This document shows, in pieces, positions 18,197 to 34,207 of a DNA stretch of 64,000 bases. A model generated the notes under the pieces. That model did not search any database and had not been told where the DNA came from. It was given only the letters and a program-made list of their open reading frames with translations. The position numbers and the translations under genes were made by a program. Numbering within the stretch: the stretch's first letter is position 1; each line of letters starts with the position of its first letter. This DNA comes from an uncultured Propionibacteriaceae bacterium (lineage in GTDB: Bacteria; Actinomycetota; Actinomycetes; Propionibacteriales; Propionibacteriaceae): NCBI GenBank assembly GCA_945911015.1, contig CAMDZW010000009.1, positions 1 to 64,000 of the forward strand, given 5' to 3'.

Positions 18197-18904
18197 TCAG
18201 AGTCGGACGACCAGGTTCTCGCTGTCGACGTACCGCCCGACCGGGCTGGTCAGCATGTCGATCGCAGCCGCGACGTCCTCGGGCTGCATGATCGTGCTGG
18301 GGTCCTCGTCGGGGGCGAGCTTGCGCCGCAACGCGGTGGCGCAGCGTCCCGGCGAGATCGTCACCACCCGGGTGCCGTAGATCGCCAGCTCCTCCTTCAG
18401 CACCTGGCTCATCGCAATCAGCGCGGCCTTGGAGCTGGAGTAGGTGAGCCAGCCGGAGCGACCGGTGATGCCGGCGGTCGAGGCGACGTTGACGATGTAG
18501 TCGAACTGGTTTCCCAGGTGGAGCAGCTTCTGCACGATGATGAACGGCGCATAGAGGTTGACACCGATGGTGCGTTCGAAGTCAGAGAATTCGATCTCGT
18601 GGATCGGTGCGGGAGCGGTGAAGCCCGCGTTGTTGACCAGCAGGTCGACCGATCCGTGCCGCTCCATGATCTCGGTCATCAGCGGCTCGATGGCGTCCCG
18701 GTCGAACAGGTCGATCTGGTAGCAGGTGAGCGTTTTGCCGTGGGGGTTGTTGGCGCGCAGTTCGGCCTCGGCCTCGGTGAACTCATCGGAGGCACGGGCG
18801 AGCAGGACGAAATCGGTGATGTCGTTGTCGGCCTGGAAGAACCGCTCGACCGTTGCCAGCCCGATGCCCTTGGAGGCTCCGGTGACCATCAGGGTCTTAC
18901 TCAT
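18197..18904 (-). CDS. Short-chain dehydrogenase/reductase (possible ribulose-5-phosphate reductase)
   Basis: A 235-residue classical SDR: TGASKGIGLATVERF (cofactor loop), NNAGF, catalytic Ser-Tyr-Lys as NVASTAGI...LTYSSSKAAL, and ISPGRCATAL. It starts within the end of the cytidylyltransferase gene (8-base overlap), so the two are translated together. In Haemophilus Bcs1 an IspD-like cytidylyltransferase is fused to an SDR that reduces ribulose 5-phosphate, together making CDP-ribitol; this pair looks like the split form. The function is inferred from pairing; the sequence shows only an SDR. Confidence 0.75.
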   Translation of the reverse strand: MSKTLMVTGASKGIGLATVERFFQADNDITDFVLLARASDEFTEAEAELRANNPHGKTLTCYQIDLFDRDAIEPLMTEIMERHGSVDLLVNNAGFTAPAPIHEIEFSDFERTIGVNLYAPFIIVQKLLHLGNQFDYIVNVASTAGITGRSGWLTYSSSKAALIAMSQVLKEELAIYGTRVVTISPGRCATALRRKLAPDEDPSTIMQPEDVAAAIDMLTSPVGRYVDSENLVVRL

Positions 18905-19580
18905 CTTCGTCATCTCCCGCCAGCAGGTATCCGGCGAGCCGGACGTCGGTCTTGGTGGTGATCTTGAAATTGCTGTCCTTGCCCGGCAGGAAGAACACGT
19001 CCGCACCGGCGACCGCGCACAAGGTGGCGTCCTCGGTGAAGGTCAGGTCCTTCGCGGTGGCATAGGCATGCCCGTCGACCAGGGTCTGCTTGCGGAACTT
19101 CTGGGGCAGCTGGACGTTGCGCAACAGCGAACGCTCCAAGGATCCGGTGACCCGTCGGGACTCCGGATTGACCGGTGCCACAGTGAACGGGATGTCGAGC
19201 ATGTAGCTGACATTCTCGTGCTCGTCCGCGATCAACTGACGGAAATCGTCGGCGGTGACCAGCGGCCGGGCCGTCTCGTGCACGATCACGTGGTCGTTGG
19301 AGCACAGGTCGAGCATCTTCGACACCGATTCGTGGCGGGTGGCGCCGGCCTCGGCATAGGTGATGGGGGTCTTGATGGCGTAGTCGGCGACGACCTTCTC
19401 GATCGCGTCACGCCACCCGTCGGGGTAGTTCAGGACGATCTGGTCGATCTCGTCGATCTCGTCGACTGCGATCAGCGGATACACCATCGCGGGGATGTGG
19501 TTGACGCGAATGAGCTGCTTCGGCTGGCCTGCGGCCACTCGAGAGCCCACCCCGCCGTTCAGGAGGGCAAGCGTGTACAT
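18897..19580 (-). CDS. IspD/TarI-family cytidylyltransferase
   Basis: A 227-residue nucleotidyltransferase. The start MYTLALLNGGVGSRVAAGQPKQLI (read in two parts) contains the CTP-binding G-x-G-x-R-x-x-x-x-x-P-K-Q pattern; VHETARPLV replaces the usual H(D/E)(A/G)(A/V)RP motif, and FKITTKTDVRLA is the C-terminal ligand loop. The family makes CDP-methylerythritol (IspD) or CDP-ribitol (TarI). Overlap with an SDR and a nearby polyol-phosphate transferase locus favours TarI. ATG at 19580 has TAGGGT 7 bases upstream (leaderless pattern). Confidence 0.78.
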   Translation of the reverse strand: MYTLALLNGGVGSRVAAGQPKQLIRVNHIPAMVYPLIAVDEIDEIDQIVLNYPDGWRDAIEKVVADYAIKTPITYAEAGATRHESVSKMLDLCSNDHVIVHETARPLVTADDFRQLIADEHENVSYMLDIPFTVAPVNPESRRVTGSLERSLLRNVQLPQKFRKQTLVDGHAYATAKDLTFTEDATLCAVAGADVFFLPGKDSNFKITTKTDVRLAGYLLAGDDEDE

Positions 19581-19653
19581 GGAGATGACCCTAACCTGTG
19601 GAGCGCGGTTCGCAGTCCCGTGCGGCGGAGGTGTCGGCACTCAGCTCGGTAGC

Positions 19654-27271: not shown

Positions 27272-30200
27272 GTGTCCAGATTGAGAAACCAGTGGTGGCC
27301 GCTCCTGCATGGAGCGATCTCGGTCGCCGCAGTGGTGCTCCTGCTGTCTGGTCACAGCCAGACTGGACGTCAGTTCGTCGGCCCTTCGTTGTGGTGGCTG
27401 GCTTGGCTGACACTGGCTGCGTCCATGCTTCTCAGCGGGCGACGTTGGTCTCTCACCGACGCCACCGGGACCTGGCTACCGTCGCGAGTCATCTTGCTCG
27501 TCGGGGTCGCTGGCCCCCTCATGACATACGATCTCAGGCTGGAGTCTCGTGCCTGGGTGACTATCGGAATTGCGATCGTGGCGGTTCGTGCAACTGTCAT
27601 CATCCGCGGACTGGGCGCTAGTGATCGGATCAGACTGGGCAACGTCGCGGGCGTGGTGCAGGCGGATCATCGACGATTCCGCGGCGCTGTTGCAACGGTG
27701 GACCTTCTGACCCCAGCAGTTCTGTTTGGTTGCGCAATGCTTGGCCTGCCGGGGGAGGTGTGGATCGCCTTCGCGACGATCGATCTACTTGTTGTCGTCG
27801 TCGCCGTGACCACATGGTGGGTGGTTCGCGGGCAACCGGATCCGGGGCCGGATGAGTTGCGGGCGACAGTCGACCGGATTGCGCCGAAATTCATCCTCTA
27901 TTGGGATGCCCCGAAGTCGACGGTCTTTCAGATCGCCATGTGGCTTCCGTATCTGCGCAGAATTGGTTTTTCGTTCGTGATCTTGGTGCGGACCCCTGCT
28001 GCTTTCAGCCAAGCCATGAGTGTCGCAGACGGGATTCCGGTCGTGATGGTGCGGCGTCGGAGTGACCTGGACGACGCCCTTCCCAGCACAGCGTCGACGG
28101 TGTTCTACGTCAACAACGCCGCCACCAACAGTCAACTTGTCGCTCACATCGAACTCACACACGTACAGCTTCTCCACGGCGACAGTGACAAGGCACCCAG
28201 CTGGAACCCGGTCACCGCGATGTATGACCGAATCTATGTGGCGGGTCAGGCCGGTATCGATCGCTACATCGATCACGGTGTATCGATCCCACCGGAGAAG
28301 TTCGAGATCGTTGGGCGGCCACAGGTCGACCAAGTGGTCGTCGCTACGGAACGGACCACCCAGGCAGCTCCGGTGGTGCTCTACACCCCCACGTGGCGCG
28401 GCTACTTTGCCGACTCGGAGTACAGCTCGCTGCCGAAAGCGCATCTACTGTTCGACCAACTGCTGGCCCGCAACTGCGCGATCGTGTTCCGGCCTCACCC
28501 CTACTGTTACAAGGACCGCGAGTTCCGTAAGGTGATGGCCGAGCTACGCGACAGACTCGACGAACACAGCCGCCGCACTGGAGTGATCCACCTCCACAGC
28601 CAGATGGCAGAGAAAGACATGACTGTCTTCGATTGCTTCAACGCGTCCGACCTGATGATCTCGGACGTCTCGAGTGTCGTTGCCGACTATCTGTGCTCGG
28701 AGAAGCCGTTCGCGGTGATGACTGACCTGGACGAGGACAGCTTCGTTGCCCAATTCCCGCTGGCGCGTGCAGCGTACGTGATGGGCTCGGACGACCGGAC
28801 CTGGTCGGCCTCACTGGATGCCATGCTTGGGGATGACCCCATGCGAGACCGTCGCCGGGAACTGAAGGTCCACTACCTGGGTGGCTTCGATCACGAGCAT
28901 TACGCCGACGCCTTCGTAGATGCTGCCCGTGCAGAGGTACGCGGCGCCCGTCCTGCCGCATCAGCCGAGGTGGACGATTCCGAGCAGGTTACTGAGGTCG
29001 TCATCGAGACCGCTGATGCGCCGGAGAGTCACGCACGTCTGCCGGAGATCGGCCGGATTTTTCACGCCGGACTGTGCGCGACCGGTTCGTTGCTCATGTT
29101 GGCCGGCCATCTGTGGTCTGGGCTTGCCCTGTGGGTGGTTGCATGGTTCTACATGGCGCAACGGACCGCTTCGGTCGGGCGTCGGCGCGGATTCAACGAA
29201 CGTCTGGGCAGCTGGACCACGGTCCGCCTGATCCTCGCTGCAGGCTTGGCCGGACCGCTGTTGCATGGTCCCTTGATCGGCAATCCGATGACTCCAGGGA
29301 CTCCGGAGGCCTGGCTCACCTGGATCGGGTGGGGCTTGGTGATCATCGCGATCCCCGCTGAAGCGATCGTGCGTCGAGCGGGACGCTATCGAGGTCTGCT
29401 GACTGCCAACGTCAGTCAGGGCGGAGCGGCAGAGGCCTCCGGGAGACTCTCAGCCGCAGTCGCCGTTGTTGAGTTCCTCGCTGCGCCGATCTTGTTGGTC
29501 CTCGGTCTGGCTGGGATCAACGGTTGGCCGTGGGTCGCTGTTCTGCTGCCGTCCACGTTGTTGGCGCTCGTGATTGGCCTGCGGGCGCACCGCCGACGCG
29601 CCCGCACCAGGGCGGCTGACACATGGGTGCCCGAATTGATGGCCGAACTGAGGCCGGAGTTCGTCCTGTACTGGGACGGAATCAGAGGCAATGCTGATCA
29701 GGTCGGGATGTGGATCCCCTATCTCAAGCGCATCGGACGGCCGTTCTTCGTCATGGTCCGGACCCCGAGTACTTTCCGGGAGGTCGTCAGGGTGTGTGAA
29801 GACGTTCCTGTCATCCTGTGTCGCACCATTCCCGACCTGGACCGGTGCATCACCGACAGCATCACCACCATCTTCTATGTCAACCACGGCTCGAAGAACG
29901 CGCATGCCGTCCGTTACGCCGAGCTGACCCATGTCCAGCTCATGCATGGTGACAACGAACGGCCAGCGAACTTCAACCCTGTCACGGCCATGTACGACAA
30001 GATATTCGTCGCCGGCCAAGCTGCGATTGACCGCTACACCGCTCACGGCGTGGACATTCCGCTCGATCGGTTTGAGATCGTCGGACGGCCACAGCTCGCA
30101 GGCATTGACGGTCCGCAGGGCCAAGGCGGGTCGCCTCACGTGCCGTGCGTGTTCTATCGGCCCGGCCTGTGCGTGAGCTCGTTGCCGCAAGGACTGGAGT

Positions 30201-30724
30201 TGGTGTCGGACCTGCTCGAGCGGGGCTGCTCGATCCTCTTCCGCCCCCACCCCGCAGCCCGCAGGTCTGCGGAGCTCGGTGGCCAGGTCCGTAAGATCGA
30301 GCGGCTACTCGCCGATCACGCGGCGCGGACCGGGATCGCCCATGTGCATGGGGACATCGCTGACCAGATGACGCGTTTCGAGTGCTACAACGCTGCCGAC
30401 GCGATGATTACGGACGGAGTGGGGGCAGTCGCGGAGTTTCTGTTCGCCGACAAGCCCGTCGCTGTGATGACCAACGGGCGAAGCGCTGAGGAGATTGTCG
30501 ATGCTGCGCCGGCCGCAGAAGCGGCGCACCTTCTTGGCAGCAGCCGCGATCAGTGGGCAGAAGCGCTGACTGACCTGCTCGGCGGGGATGGCCTACGCTC
30601 ACGACGCGCGACGCTTCGCAGATATTTCTATGGGCCGTTCGACCGAGCGGGTTATGCAGATGTCTTTGTGGACACCGCCCGTGAGGTGGTCCTTGCTCGG
30701 GCTCGCAGCGCTACGATCACCTGA
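27272..30724 (+). CDS. Double-module membrane polyol-phosphate transferase (TagF-like), second module degenerate
   Basis: A 1150-residue protein with two repeats of one layout: about five membrane helices, then a CDP-glycerol/ribitol glycerophosphotransferase domain. Module 1 keeps the family residues: HGDSDKA (catalytic His region, ~28174), PTWRGYFADS, FRPHPYCYKD (~28490) and SDVSSVVADYL. Module 2 (from ~29040) keeps HGD and FRPHP but reads HGDNERP, YRPGLCVSS and TDGVGAVAEFL at the other sites. The TWRG motif and the serines that bind the CDP phosphate are lost, so this half is probably non-catalytic. I prefer the GTG at 27272, after the upstream stop, to an ATG at 27218 that overlaps the previous gene. 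Confidence 0.82.
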   Translation: MSRLRNQWWPLLHGAISVAAVVLLLSGHSQTGRQFVGPSLWWLAWLTLAASMLLSGRRWSLTDATGTWLPSRVILLVGVAGPLMTYDLRLESRAWVTIGIAIVAVRATVIIRGLGASDRIRLGNVAGVVQADHRRFRGAVATVDLLTPAVLFGCAMLGLPGEVWIAFATIDLLVVVVAVTTWWVVRGQPDPGPDELRATVDRIAPKFILYWDAPKSTVFQIAMWLPYLRRIGFSFVILVRTPAAFSQAMSVADGIPVVMVRRRSDLDDALPSTASTVFYVNNAATNSQLVAHIELTHVQLLHGDSDKAPSWNPVTAMYDRIYVAGQAGIDRYIDHGVSIPPEKFEIVGRPQVDQVVVATERTTQAAPVVLYTPTWRGYFADSEYSSLPKAHLLFDQLLARNCAIVFRPHPYCYKDREFRKVMAELRDRLDEHSRRTGVIHLHSQMAEKDMTVFDCFNASDLMISDVSSVVADYLCSEKPFAVMTDLDEDSFVAQFPLARAAYVMGSDDRTWSASLDAMLGDDPMRDRRRELKVHYLGGFDHEHYADAFVDAARAEVRGARPAASAEVDDSEQVTEVVIETADAPESHARLPEIGRIFHAGLCATGSLLMLAGHLWSGLALWVVAWFYMAQRTASVGRRRGFNERLGSWTTVRLILAAGLAGPLLHGPLIGNPMTPGTPEAWLTWIGWGLVIIAIPAEAIVRRAGRYRGLLTANVSQGGAAEASGRLSAAVAVVEFLAAPILLVLGLAGINGWPWVAVLLPSTLLALVIGLRAHRRRARTRAADTWVPELMAELRPEFVLYWDGIRGNADQVGMWIPYLKRIGRPFFVMVRTPSTFREVVRVCEDVPVILCRTIPDLDRCITDSITTIFYVNHGSKNAHAVRYAELTHVQLMHGDNERPANFNPVTAMYDKIFVAGQAAIDRYTAHGVDIPLDRFEIVGRPQLAGIDGPQGQGGSPHVPCVFYRPGLCVSSLPQGLELVSDLLERGCSILFRPHPAARRSAELGGQVRKIERLLADHAARTGIAHVHGDIADQMTRFECYNAADAMITDGVGAVAEFLFADKPVAVMTNGRSAEEIVDAAPAAEAAHLLGSSRDQWAEALTDLLGGDGLRSRRATLRRYFYGPFDRAGYADVFVDTAREVVLARARSATIT

Positions 30725-30745
30725 AGCCTGACTGAAGGGATCGCA

Positions 30746-32449
30746 ATGCCAGGTCGTGAAGTGTTCCGGTTGTTCCGAACCGGCACCTGTGTGACGGCCT
30801 CGCTACTCCTACTTGCAGGGCAGCTGTGGGTGGGAGTGCTGCTCTGGACTCTGGTTAGCCTCCTCGTGGCACACGAAGTGGTCACGGTTGCCCGTAAAAA
30901 AGGCTTCGGCAGTCGCTTGGGTACTTGGGCGACGATACGGTTGATTCTCATCGTTGGCATTGCCGGCCCACTTGTCCACCACCATGGCATCAGCCAGGAA
31001 TGGGCGGCTTGGCTCGGTCTCGGGCTTGCGATGCTGGCGGTCCGGTCCGAGCCTTTGGTCGCCAGAGCCTCTGGCTACCAAGGCCTGCAAGTCGCCAACC
31101 TCGTAGGTTGGGGTGCTGGACGGGAGTCGACGTCGCTGCACCACGTACTCGCCGCTCTCGAGTTCCTCTCGATCCCAGTGCTGATGGTCTTTGCAATCGT
31201 CGGAGTTCCCGGCTGGGTATGGCCGTTGGTGCTGACCCCATCGGCGGCGATTGCCATCATCATCGGCCTGCAGGCTCGGGCGCGGCACACACGTACGCGG
31301 GATGCAGACACATGGGTTCCGGAGATGATGACCCAGCTGGCCCCCAAGTTCGTTCTCTACTGGGACGCACCAAGCGGCACTGCCTACCAGATCGGGATGT
31401 GGATCCCGTTCCTCAAGCGCGTCGGGCAGCCGTTCTTCGTGATGGTGCGCAATCCGAGCACCTTCACCCAAGCTGTGTCGGTGTGCGAAGACGTTCCGGT
31501 CATCCTATGTCGGACCATGGCGGACATGGACCGCTGCGTGCCCGAAACGCTCACCACCGCGTTCTACGTCAACAACGGCGCCAAGAATGCACACTTTGTA
31601 CGCTATCCGCAGTTGACTCACGTCCAGTTACTGCACGGTGACAGCGACAAGGCCTCCAGTTTCAACCCGATCACCGTCATGTTCGACAAGATTTACGTGG
31701 CCGGACAGGCCGGAATCAACCGATATGCAGACCATGGCGTCGACATCCCCGCTCACAAGTTCGAGATCGTCGGACGACCGCAGGTTGAGGGCGTCCGTGC
31801 CGCCGATGGACGGCTGGCCGACATCCCAAACCCGCGGATCCTGTATGCCCCCACCTGGCGTGGAAACTACTCCGACGCGTCCTACAGCTCACTTCCGCAG
31901 GCAGAGGTGCTATTCGAGGAACTGCTGGCACGGGGTTGCTCGATCGTCTTTCGGCCGCATCCGTACTGCCGTAAGGATCCCGAGTTCCGCGAGATTATCA
32001 AGAAGCTCAATGCCCGGCTTGCCCAGCACACCGGACAGACCGGCGTCGAACACGTCTACGGCGCCGCTGCCGAGATCGAGATGAGCGTCGTCGACTGTTT
32101 CAACAGCTCCGACGCGATGATCTCCGACGTGTCCAGTGTGGTGGTCGACTACCTCCACTCCGAGAAACCGTTCGCGCTGATCGCGGCCGGGCGAACATCA
32201 GCCTCCTTCATCGAGGAATTCCCACTCGCCGTCGCGGCCTACGTGCTCAGCGGAAGGGCCGAGACTTGGGCACTGCTGATGGACAAGATGTTCGGTGAGG
32301 ACCCTCTGGCAGAGACCCGCCGTAAGTTGCGGGTCCATTATCTTGGTGACTTCGAACGGGACACCTACTCCGACGGCTTCGTCTCAGCAGCTGCGACACA
32401 GGTCGAGCGGCGTAAGACGCTGCCGACCGCGCCCAGAGTCCGGTGGTGA
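30746..32449 (+). CDS. Membrane polyol-phosphate transferase (TagF-like), single module
   Basis: A 567-residue paralogue of the modules in the preceding gene, 21 bases downstream. Four to five N-terminal membrane helices (residues ~10-180) precede a complete transferase domain: THVQLLHGDSDKASSFNP, YVAGQAGINRY, YAPTWRGNYSDASYSSLP, FRPHPYCRKD and SDVSSVVVDYLHSEKPF. The family moves glycerol-3-phosphate or ribitol-5-phosphate from the CDP form onto a lipid-linked teichoic acid chain. With two catalytic modules in the locus, one may prime and the other elongate, or each use a different polyol; sequence does not decide. Confidence 0.85.
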   Translation: MPGREVFRLFRTGTCVTASLLLLAGQLWVGVLLWTLVSLLVAHEVVTVARKKGFGSRLGTWATIRLILIVGIAGPLVHHHGISQEWAAWLGLGLAMLAVRSEPLVARASGYQGLQVANLVGWGAGRESTSLHHVLAALEFLSIPVLMVFAIVGVPGWVWPLVLTPSAAIAIIIGLQARARHTRTRDADTWVPEMMTQLAPKFVLYWDAPSGTAYQIGMWIPFLKRVGQPFFVMVRNPSTFTQAVSVCEDVPVILCRTMADMDRCVPETLTTAFYVNNGAKNAHFVRYPQLTHVQLLHGDSDKASSFNPITVMFDKIYVAGQAGINRYADHGVDIPAHKFEIVGRPQVEGVRAADGRLADIPNPRILYAPTWRGNYSDASYSSLPQAEVLFEELLARGCSIVFRPHPYCRKDPEFREIIKKLNARLAQHTGQTGVEHVYGAAAEIEMSVVDCFNSSDAMISDVSSVVVDYLHSEKPFALIAAGRTSASFIEEFPLAVAAYVLSGRAETWALLMDKMFGEDPLAETRRKLRVHYLGDFERDTYSDGFVSAAATQVERRKTLPTAPRVRW

Positions 32450-34207
32450 TCAGTTGAAGACGACCGCGAGTCGTCCAGTCGAAGCGTTCCATACGATCTT
32501 GCCGTTCTCGAATGCGGCCTTGCGACCTCCGGAGGTGGCGTAGTCCGGTTTGAGGAGCTTGCCGAGTTTGGCTTCACTCTTGTCGGTGAGCTTCACCCAG
32601 CGGCCCGCGATCTCATCGGTCAAATGATGGGTGTCGGCATCGCCATACGACACGATCAGGCCGTGCTCGAATCGGGCCCACTGAGATCCGGAGATCTCGC
32701 CTCGGGTGACGTTGGTCCTGGGTAGACCCAGGAGGCCGCCAGGGCCGCCGGCGGTGGCTCGGTAGTACTGGTAGACGGCGCCGTGGATGGCCTTGGTGGG
32801 CGTACTGCCGGAGCGGTAGATTGCGCCGTTGGTGAAGCCCTGTCCTCGGCCTCCGGTCACGTCGTGCACATCGCTGCGCGGCCAGCCGAGCGGGTGTGCG
32901 GGCCCTCCCAGATCTTGGTACAGCGTTTCGATCGGACCGCGGGTCTCGTGTGACCCGGTACTGGGATGCCACCACAGCGACTTCGGTTTGCTGGAGCGCA
33001 GCAGGCCGAGATGGCGGCCCCCCTCGACCGCAGTCTCACCGACATGGGGGTGTCCAAAGTCGGCCGCACCACCGCGTCGGGCCCAGTCCTTGCCAATAGC
33101 GCTCGGAGGGCCCATCCTGTCCTCGACAGCATCGCGCAGACCGCTCATCCTTGACCTGATGTTCTTGCCAGGACAGGCTGTGGCCATCACGTCGCCGTGA
33201 CCGAAGATGACGTTGACGGTCTTGCCGGCCAGCTTCAGTTTTCCCTTGGCCTGCCGCTGGAAGGCGTCGAGCTTCCAGGCGATCAGATCCGCGCCAGCGT
33301 CCAACATCACCGACGGGGGATTGGCGGTCTCGTAGTTGCCCATGAAGGACATCCCCATGGTGTTGGTGTTCCAGTCAGCGGCGTGGGCGCCGTGAACCGG
33401 GAGGTTGACGCCGCCCCAGCGACCCTCGAACACCTGACCGTACTTGTCGACCAGGAAGTTGTAGCCAATGTCGCACCAGCCCAAGGTCTTGGTGTGGTAC
33501 GCATAGATGTCGCGGATGATGGAGGCTGACTGTGTTTTCGAGTAGCTGTTGCTTCCCGCCGTGTGATGGACAACAGCCGCCTTGACGGTGGTGCCCATCT
33601 TGTCCTCGTTGCAGCGCCAGGACTCGTCGGCACCCCAACCTTTTCTCGTGATGATCTCCGGCCGTGGCGCCAAGTCTGATGCGGACTGGGCCGACAGGGT
33701 CTGCGGGTCGGCATCGGAGGCCACCACAGGCGACTTCATCAGGACCACCTGCGCATCGCGTAGGTGGGTGTCGGACCCGCCAACGAGACGCACGGCGACG
33801 CCATCGCTGTCCCCGACCCAGATGGGATCGGTCGCGAGCCGCTGGTCGCCGGTGTTGATTGCCGGACCATCAGTGATCGTTTGCCAGTCGGACCAGCCGT
33901 CACTGGATCGGGTCCGGACCTGGACCTCGGGCTCGGTGCCCGCGCTCTCAGCTGACCACGTCACTCCGACCGAGGAGAAGCCCTCGGTGTTGCGCTCGCC
34001 GAGTTCGGCAACTACTCGGTTCAGCTCTGTGCTACGCCGATCGGAATTGTTGGTCCCGATCCGTGGTCGGTCGGGGTTCGTCGCGACCGACAGCGTGGTG
34101 ATGGAAGTTGTGGGTGCTGTGTCGGCATGCGCGTGTGGTGGGGCGAGCAGAGCCACTCCGGCGACGAGGAGGGCAGCAACAGCCAGTCGGGGGGATGTCC
34201 TGGACAC
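32450..34207 (-). CDS. Secreted N-acetylmuramoyl-L-alanine amidase (PGRP fold) with LGFP repeats
   Basis: A 585-residue exported protein. The Sec signal peptide (basic start, LAVAALLVAGVALLAPPHAHA) is followed by a ~160-residue beta-rich region, then an amidase_2/PGRP domain: RKGWGADESWR, VVHHTAGSNSYS, CDIGYNFLVDKYGQVFEGR (two parts), NTMGMSFMGNY and FGHGDVMATACPG, giving the zinc His-His-Cys set. The C-terminus has several LGFP-type repeats (GGPAHPLGWPRSDV, GGPGGLLGLPRTNV), which bind the cell wall in corynebacterial homologues. It is tail to tail with the transferase genes, stop codons adjacent; a wall-remodelling partner is plausible. Confidence 0.9.
   Translation of the reverse strand: MSRTSPRLAVAALLVAGVALLAPPHAHADTAPTTSITTLSVATNPDRPRIGTNNSDRRSTELNRVVAELGERNTEGFSSVGVTWSAESAGTEPEVQVRTRSSDGWSDWQTITDGPAINTGDQRLATDPIWVGDSDGVAVRLVGGSDTHLRDAQVVLMKSPVVASDADPQTLSAQSASDLAPRPEIITRKGWGADESWRCNEDKMGTTVKAAVVHHTAGSNSYSKTQSASIIRDIYAYHTKTLGWCDIGYNFLVDKYGQVFEGRWGGVNLPVHGAHAADWNTNTMGMSFMGNYETANPPSVMLDAGADLIAWKLDAFQRQAKGKLKLAGKTVNVIFGHGDVMATACPGKNIRSRMSGLRDAVEDRMGPPSAIGKDWARRGGAADFGHPHVGETAVEGGRHLGLLRSSKPKSLWWHPSTGSHETRGPIETLYQDLGGPAHPLGWPRSDVHDVTGGRGQGFTNGAIYRSGSTPTKAIHGAVYQYYRATAGGPGGLLGLPRTNVTRGEISGSQWARFEHGLIVSYGDADTHHLTDEIAGRWVKLTDKSEAKLGKLLKPDYATSGGRKAAFENGKIVWNASTGRLAVVFN

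Follow-up and report, generated by a model that had tools for sequence, protein, structure and literature searches.

A TagF-like module with a degenerate donor site in a bimodular membrane protein of an uncultured Propionibacteriaceae bacterium

Introduction

The closest described relatives of the proteins considered here are TagF of Staphylococcus epidermidis (3L7I-3L7M) and TarL of Staphylococcus aureus (8VA1), wall teichoic acid polyol-phosphate polymerases of family PF04464. We know of no settled account of how polymerases of the TagF/TarL type set chain length. In the capsule polymerases Cps3D (8QOY), Cps7D and Bcs3, a TagF-like domain is fused in one chain to another transferase, which is a glycosyltransferase-A (GT-A) or glycosyltransferase-B (GT-B) type sugar or ribose-phosphate transferase. 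Cps7A, the transition transferase of Actinobacillus pleuropneumoniae, has a TagF-family GT-B domain, and a mutant of it without catalytic activity can still stimulate the polymerase Cps7D to make long chains (PMC11666461). Here we describe two adjacent genes in a 64,000-nucleotide stretch of contig CAMDZW010000009.1 (hereafter the window) from an uncultured Propionibacteriaceae bacterium. The first encodes P0001, a bimodular membrane TagF-like protein with modules m1 and m2, and the second encodes P0002, which carries a third module, m3. In m2, the residues of the donor site are lost.

The locus resembles TagF and TarL in that a GT-B fold covers the whole soluble domain of m2 and in that m1 and m3 carry the HG, PTWRG, RPHP and SD-SS motifs. 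It differs from them in the six-helix N-terminal membrane domain of its modules and in the presence of two modules per chain, of which m2 lacks the donor-site residues. Unlike TagF and CroT, for which a Pro or Gly is discussed at this position, the sequence here reads HGDS. A sequence match to structure 8QOY (E=2e-5) relates the locus to Cps3D. P0001 shares with Cps3D, Cps7D and Bcs3 the fusion of a TagF-like domain, but its partner domain is a second, degenerate copy of the same module. In contrast to Cps7A, a separate protein in which inactivity was engineered, the degeneracy of m2 is natural and sits in a fused chain. P0001 and P0002 represent a variant, specific to one lineage, of an enzyme family that is already known.

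Anatomy of the three modules

P0001 is a 1150-residue open reading frame (ORF) with a GTG start (27272-30724) and P0002 a 567-residue ORF (30746-32449, module 30746-32446); these genes and all module features given below lie on the + strand. Each P0001 module consists of a six-helix membrane domain and a TagF-like GT-B domain, with m1 at 27272-29023 and m2 at 29024-30721. The two share one open frame with no stop between them, and separate translation of m2 is possible because an internal GTG at 28970 precedes it. Aligned end to end, m1 and m2 are 37% identical, m1 and m3 44%, and m2 and m3 48%. The preliminary description of this DNA had placed two modules in the 1150-residue protein and a third in the next gene, which ORF translation and module alignment confirmed. 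The motifs it quoted also read as written, namely HGDSDKA, PTWRG, SSLP, FRPHPYC and SDVSSVV in m1 and m3, and HGDNERP, YRPGL, FRPHPAA and TDGVGAV in m2. Its count of five membrane helices per module has to be corrected, as the AlphaFold2 (AF2) model of m2 shows six.

Both m1 (HGDSDKA 28175-28195, PTWRG 28388-28402, SDVSSVV 28661-28681) and m3 (31634-31654, 31850-31864 and 32123-32143 for the same motifs) carry the His of the HG motif, the PTW loop, the His of RPHP and SD-SS. The Pfam PF04464 cut-off (22.1 bits) was passed by P0001 through m1 (59 bits) and by m3 (43.3 bits), while m2 fell below it (11.6 bits, E=0.13). The modules m1 and m3 are probably polyol-phosphate transferases of the TagF/TarL type that are anchored in the membrane.

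Donor-site losses in m2

We gathered relatives from genomes of the same order, from GTDB contigs and from the family, and aligned 147 modules from outside the window. All tested donor-site residues (Lys, the Thr-Trp loop and Ser-Ser) were missing from m2. In HGDNERP (29945-29965), His-Gly is kept, Ser is replaced by Asn, and the Lys that is invariant in 147/147 relatives is replaced by Arg. YRP (30155-30163) is what remains of YAPTWRG, since TWRG and the next three residues are deleted, including a Thr-Trp that is again invariant in 147/147. At the position of SDVSSVV, m2 has TDGVGAV (30410-30430), in which Val stands for the first Ser of the SDVSS Ser-Ser, present in 145 of the 147. FRPHPAA (30239-30259) retains its Arg and His. 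Losses of the m2 type were seen in none of the 147 aligned relatives and in none of the many modules and fragments added in a further scan. When 42 positions with at least 90% conservation among 64 representatives were compared, m2 was changed at 10, m1 and m3 at one each, and the most divergent other relative at 6.

The CDP-glycerol (CDP, cytidine diphosphate) contacts listed for the CgoT domain of Cps3D are A573, R607, S647, S648, D652, H479 and G480 (PMC11666461). Applying an inferred three-residue offset, we carried them over to m2 by way of the match in sequence to Cps3D (8QOY). A573, S647, S648 and D652 are changed in m2, and H479, G480, R607 and H609 are kept; the donor pocket of m2 therefore appears broken while both catalytic histidines stay. 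The correspondence bears out the earlier view that the lost residues belong to the CDP-polyol/phosphate site. The accompanying claim that m2 loses its catalytic motifs held for the donor-site Lys, the TW-G loop and Ser-Ser, but not for the two catalytic histidines or the Asp of SD. On this alignment, what m2 has lost is the predicted donor (CDP/pyrophosphate) site and not all catalytic motifs, and m2 is probably catalytically inactive.

Inactivation also occurs sporadically and independently elsewhere in the TagF-like membrane family, as two full-length proteins indicate. In G009 (L162 9064-10863), HGDSDK has become DPDNAD and RPHP is shortened to RP, and in G169 (L181 1444-3291), HG has become SG and RPHP has become RPDP, so that both have lost the catalytic histidines. 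These two are orthologs of another family member, from a sister genus, in which most same-genus orthologs are intact.

The AF2 model of m2, built from a 40-sequence alignment, was confident, with a predicted local distance difference test score (pLDDT) of 91.5 and a predicted template modelling score (pTM) of 0.87. It shows six membrane-type helices (m2 residues 2-209, 29027-29650), the sixth continuing into the GT-B domain. The GT-B domain superposed on TagF (Z 17.8), Bcs3 (17.3) and TarL (16.9). The fold alone is uninformative on the function of m2, because UDP-GlcNAc (uridine diphosphate N-acetylglucosamine) 2-epimerases also superpose (18.8).

Half-specific change in m2

Identity between m2 and m3 is 44% in the membrane domain, 68% in the N-terminal half of the TagF-like domain (N-half) and 36% in its C-terminal half (C-half). 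The C-halves of m1 and m3 are 54% identical, and the membrane domains of other within-genus pairs 26-32%. The effect extends beyond the motif stretches, outside which the C-half identity is 33% for m2-m3 and 49% for m1-m3. Nonsynonymous distance (dN) between m2 and m3 rose from 0.19 in the N-half to 0.60 in the C-half, whereas synonymous distances (dS) were much alike (1.75 and 1.45); the resulting dN/dS values for m2, about 0.1 and about 0.4, are only rough because dS is saturated. Gene conversion as the source of the N-half similarity between m2 and m3 was not favoured, as dS in the N-half is not below that in the C-half, though both are saturated.

With the topology fixed, branch lengths for the membrane domain, N-half and C-half were 0.65, 0.33 and 1.52 for m2 and 0.41, 0.11 and 0.43 for m3, the m2 C-half branch being the longest in the set. 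Relative-rate tests of m2 against m3 gave p=0.79 for the membrane domain and p=4e-5 for the C-half, and the contrast in rate between N-half and C-half was significant with three outgroup choices (p=0.009, 0.003 and 0.04). In GT-B transferases generally, the C-terminal Rossmann half is the nucleotide-donor half. Since it is this half that is accelerated, m2 appears to have given up its donor side specifically.

Origin and distribution of the modules

In the core tree, m1, m2, m3 and a single module of Candidatus Avipropionibacterium avicola formed one clade (100/91). The N-modules and C-modules of other bimodular proteins formed two separate clades (100/100 each), with m1 and m2 outside both, and the P0001 fusion is therefore independent of this widespread actinobacterial fusion. 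Intact bimodular proteins, single frames of 1040-1270 residues, were found in Arthrobacter, Microlunatus, Mumia, Brevibacterium, Friedmanniella, one Propionibacteriaceae metagenome-assembled genome (MAG) and others; the bimodular architecture is thus not confined to P0001. Unlike P0001, every other bimodular protein examined was intact in both modules. A third module gene follows the bimodular gene in Arthrobacter, Microlunatus and the Propionibacteriaceae MAG. No related loci were found with P0001 alone as query, and no paper on bimodular membrane TagF-like proteins was found in the literature searched; the family is apparently widespread in Actinomycetota and undescribed in that literature.

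The A. avicola locus shares with the window a neighbourhood of UTP-glucose-1-phosphate uridylyltransferase (UGPase; UTP, uridine triphosphate), pyruvyltransferase and major facilitator superfamily (MFS) genes. However, it has one module, and the order is UGPase, module, pyruvyltransferase, MarR and MFS. This single module (L038/L052; L038 9360-11081) shares 46-49% identity with m1 and m3 along its full length, and no second or third module of the clade was found in the 90%-complete A. avicola genome. With a single module at the corresponding site in the congener, m2 cannot be regarded as a conserved part of a system. The proposed active-inactive pair thus holds in that the donor site of m2 is degraded beyond that of any aligned relative, but not as a distinct conserved system. 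Conservation of the m2 degeneracy among orthologs, for which a survey had been suggested, was not observed: the sole other member of the genus has a single module there, and the 147 relatives lack such losses.

Most likely, m1, m2 and m3 are products of tandem duplication in the Avipropionibacterium lineage, with m2 as the sister of m3. A large tree of the TagF core only, which includes the degenerate half, placed m2 outside m3+(m1, A. avicola). In segment-wise approximately unbiased (AU) tests, the membrane domain rejected this placement (p=0.006) and favoured m2+m3, and the N-half did not exclude it (p=0.10). Because of the membrane-domain rejection, we read the large-tree placement as a long-branch effect.

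Other arrangements of the modules were also seen. One locus (L035 8048-15411, G019) has two tandem bimodular TagF-like genes, that is four modules, with all motifs intact. A cassette that recurs in L066, L067, L072, L089, L108 and L130 joins a bimodular TagF-like gene to a shorter third-module gene behind it, and its third-module genes have PTWRG with DVSS or DVGS variants.

Possible roles of m2

We favour, at roughly even chances, a tandem triplication in the genus after which m2 was kept as a donor-dead partner on the acceptor or membrane side. Three TagF/TarL-type modules would have come from tandem duplication, with m1 and m2 now in one chain. The modules m1 and m3 would add polyol phosphate, likeliest ribitol phosphate from CDP-ribitol, to a polymer of the wall teichoic acid type, which the neighbouring pyruvyltransferase would pyruvylate. 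Having lost the pocket that binds the donor through its CDP/pyrophosphate, m2 would probably carry out no transfer. Its fold, its membrane domain and, on the acceptor side, the N-terminal half with both catalytic histidines are kept, and it would most likely serve m1, perhaps also m3, as a non-catalytic partner that holds the acceptor chain or fills a subunit position. The inactivity, the donor and the partner role are what we infer from the observed anatomy, motif losses, acceleration, synteny and absence from the congener. A functional m2 is favoured by its low N-half dN, unaccelerated membrane domain and intact frame. Inactive Cps7A is a precedent for such a partner, and also for the polymer binding or chain-length measurement that the preliminary description thought possible.

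Several results weigh against a retained partner. The degenerate state was seen in one genome only, that of a gut-type actinobacterium, and the absence of m2 from A. avicola together with the mild acceleration of the N-half (p=0.035 against m3) favours decay. Loss of conserved positions did not differ significantly between the halves (2/15 and 8/27, Fisher test p=0.29), and the rates are rough, as noted above. Both histidines that are essential in TagF-like enzymes, in HG and RPHP, are kept along with the Asp of SD, and a dead enzyme would appear to have no need of catalytic histidines. An AF2 model of full P0001 from 10 sequences (pLDDT 56, pTM 0.37) was unused and supports no contact between m1 and m2.

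Neutral decay, in which m2 became redundant after duplication, its donor site eroded under relaxed selection and it persists through the in-frame fusion to m1, is a live rival but seems somewhat unlikely to us. The absence from the congener, the occurrence in one genome, the strong C-half and mild N-half acceleration and the sporadic full-length degeneration in G009 and G169 speak for it. However, the 566-codon frame is uninterrupted despite a saturated synonymous distance, N-half dN/dS is low, the membrane domain is unaccelerated and the AF2 model keeps the fold. A more specific form of the partner role is unlikely: m2 would be a pseudo-polymerase that binds no donor, holds the acceptor chain at the membrane, passes it to the fused m1 and so sets processivity or length, for which inactive Cps7A is a precedent. 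Retention of His-Gly, Arg-x-His and Asp, with a C-half dN/dS below 1 (though dS is saturated), would also suit an m2 that is active with a different donor or another mode of phosphate binding. This is also a live alternative but rather improbable, as the loss of the Thr-Trp loop, the Lys and the phosphate-contacting Ser leaves no known grip on the CDP pyrophosphate, and no compensating conserved motif is recognisable from the single sequence. That m2 is instead the degraded second module of the old widespread fusion is very improbable; the gene order matches that of Arthrobacter, Microlunatus and RYN_202, but we rejected this origin on the core tree, where the clade of m1, m2, m3 and the A. 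avicola module stands apart from the N- and C-module clades.

A natural chain that holds one intact and one donor-dead copy of a module would allow the handling of the acceptor to be studied apart from catalysis, and it makes the question of chain length testable. A true pseudo-polymerase would be the wall teichoic acid counterpart of regulatory pseudoenzymes.

Gene neighbourhood and predicted polymer

A polysaccharide pyruvyltransferase gene (PF04230; 25717-27261, +) lies directly upstream of P0001, preceded by the UGPase-family gene (PF01704; 24328-25695, +) that is syntenic in A. avicola. Pyruvyltransferase genes also adjoin the A. avicola module and, at about 20 further loci, other genes of the TagF-like family. 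Actinobacteria are known to make teichoic acids that bear pyruvate, among them poly(ribitol phosphate) and poly(mannitol phosphate) (PMC6801904). Further upstream, an IspD-family, TarI-like cytidylyltransferase gene (18897-19640, -), the second IspD paralogue of the genome, is paired with a short-chain dehydrogenase/reductase (SDR) gene (18197-18898, -), a candidate ribulose-5-phosphate reductase.

In Flexivirga, Glycomyces and many Micromonospora, a pair of this kind, either split or fused, is found immediately upstream of a family member, and in many Micromonospora it is the fused form that precedes the TagF-like genes. The bimodular membrane family in Actinomycetota travels with CDP-ribitol-type synthesis genes. 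One fused IspD-like/SDR protein that was scanned passed the NCBIfam cut-off for D-ribitol-5-phosphate cytidylyltransferase. The IspD-like protein of the window scored below it (80.8 vs 166), so a polyol other than ribitol is possible. No match to a TagD-type glycerol-3-phosphate cytidylyltransferase was found in this genome, and with the ribitol-type relative of the IspD-like/SDR pair this makes CDP-ribitol the likeliest donor. The pair at 18197-19640 (-) is a probable CDP-polyol (ribitol) synthesis unit and, taken with the pyruvyltransferase nearby, it suggests that the product of the locus is a teichoic acid that carries pyruvate and is probably built of ribitol phosphate.

A scan for consensus promoters and terminators gave nothing exceeding shuffled sequence. 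Adjoining m3 is a gene for an Amidase_2 protein with LGFP repeats, a cell-wall hydrolase (32450-34207, -), for which the A. avicola locus showed no counterpart. The IspD-like gene of the window is 81% identical to a copy at an A. avicola contig edge. A third IspD-family match, in a 526-residue frame and possibly fused, lies about 30 kb past the window on the same contig (G000:C9:93525-94043). Elsewhere in the same genome (L034 6568-9044, G000 contig 12), a further single TagF-like module has as neighbours a gene of the CDP-alcohol phosphatidyltransferase family and a family-2 glycosyltransferase.

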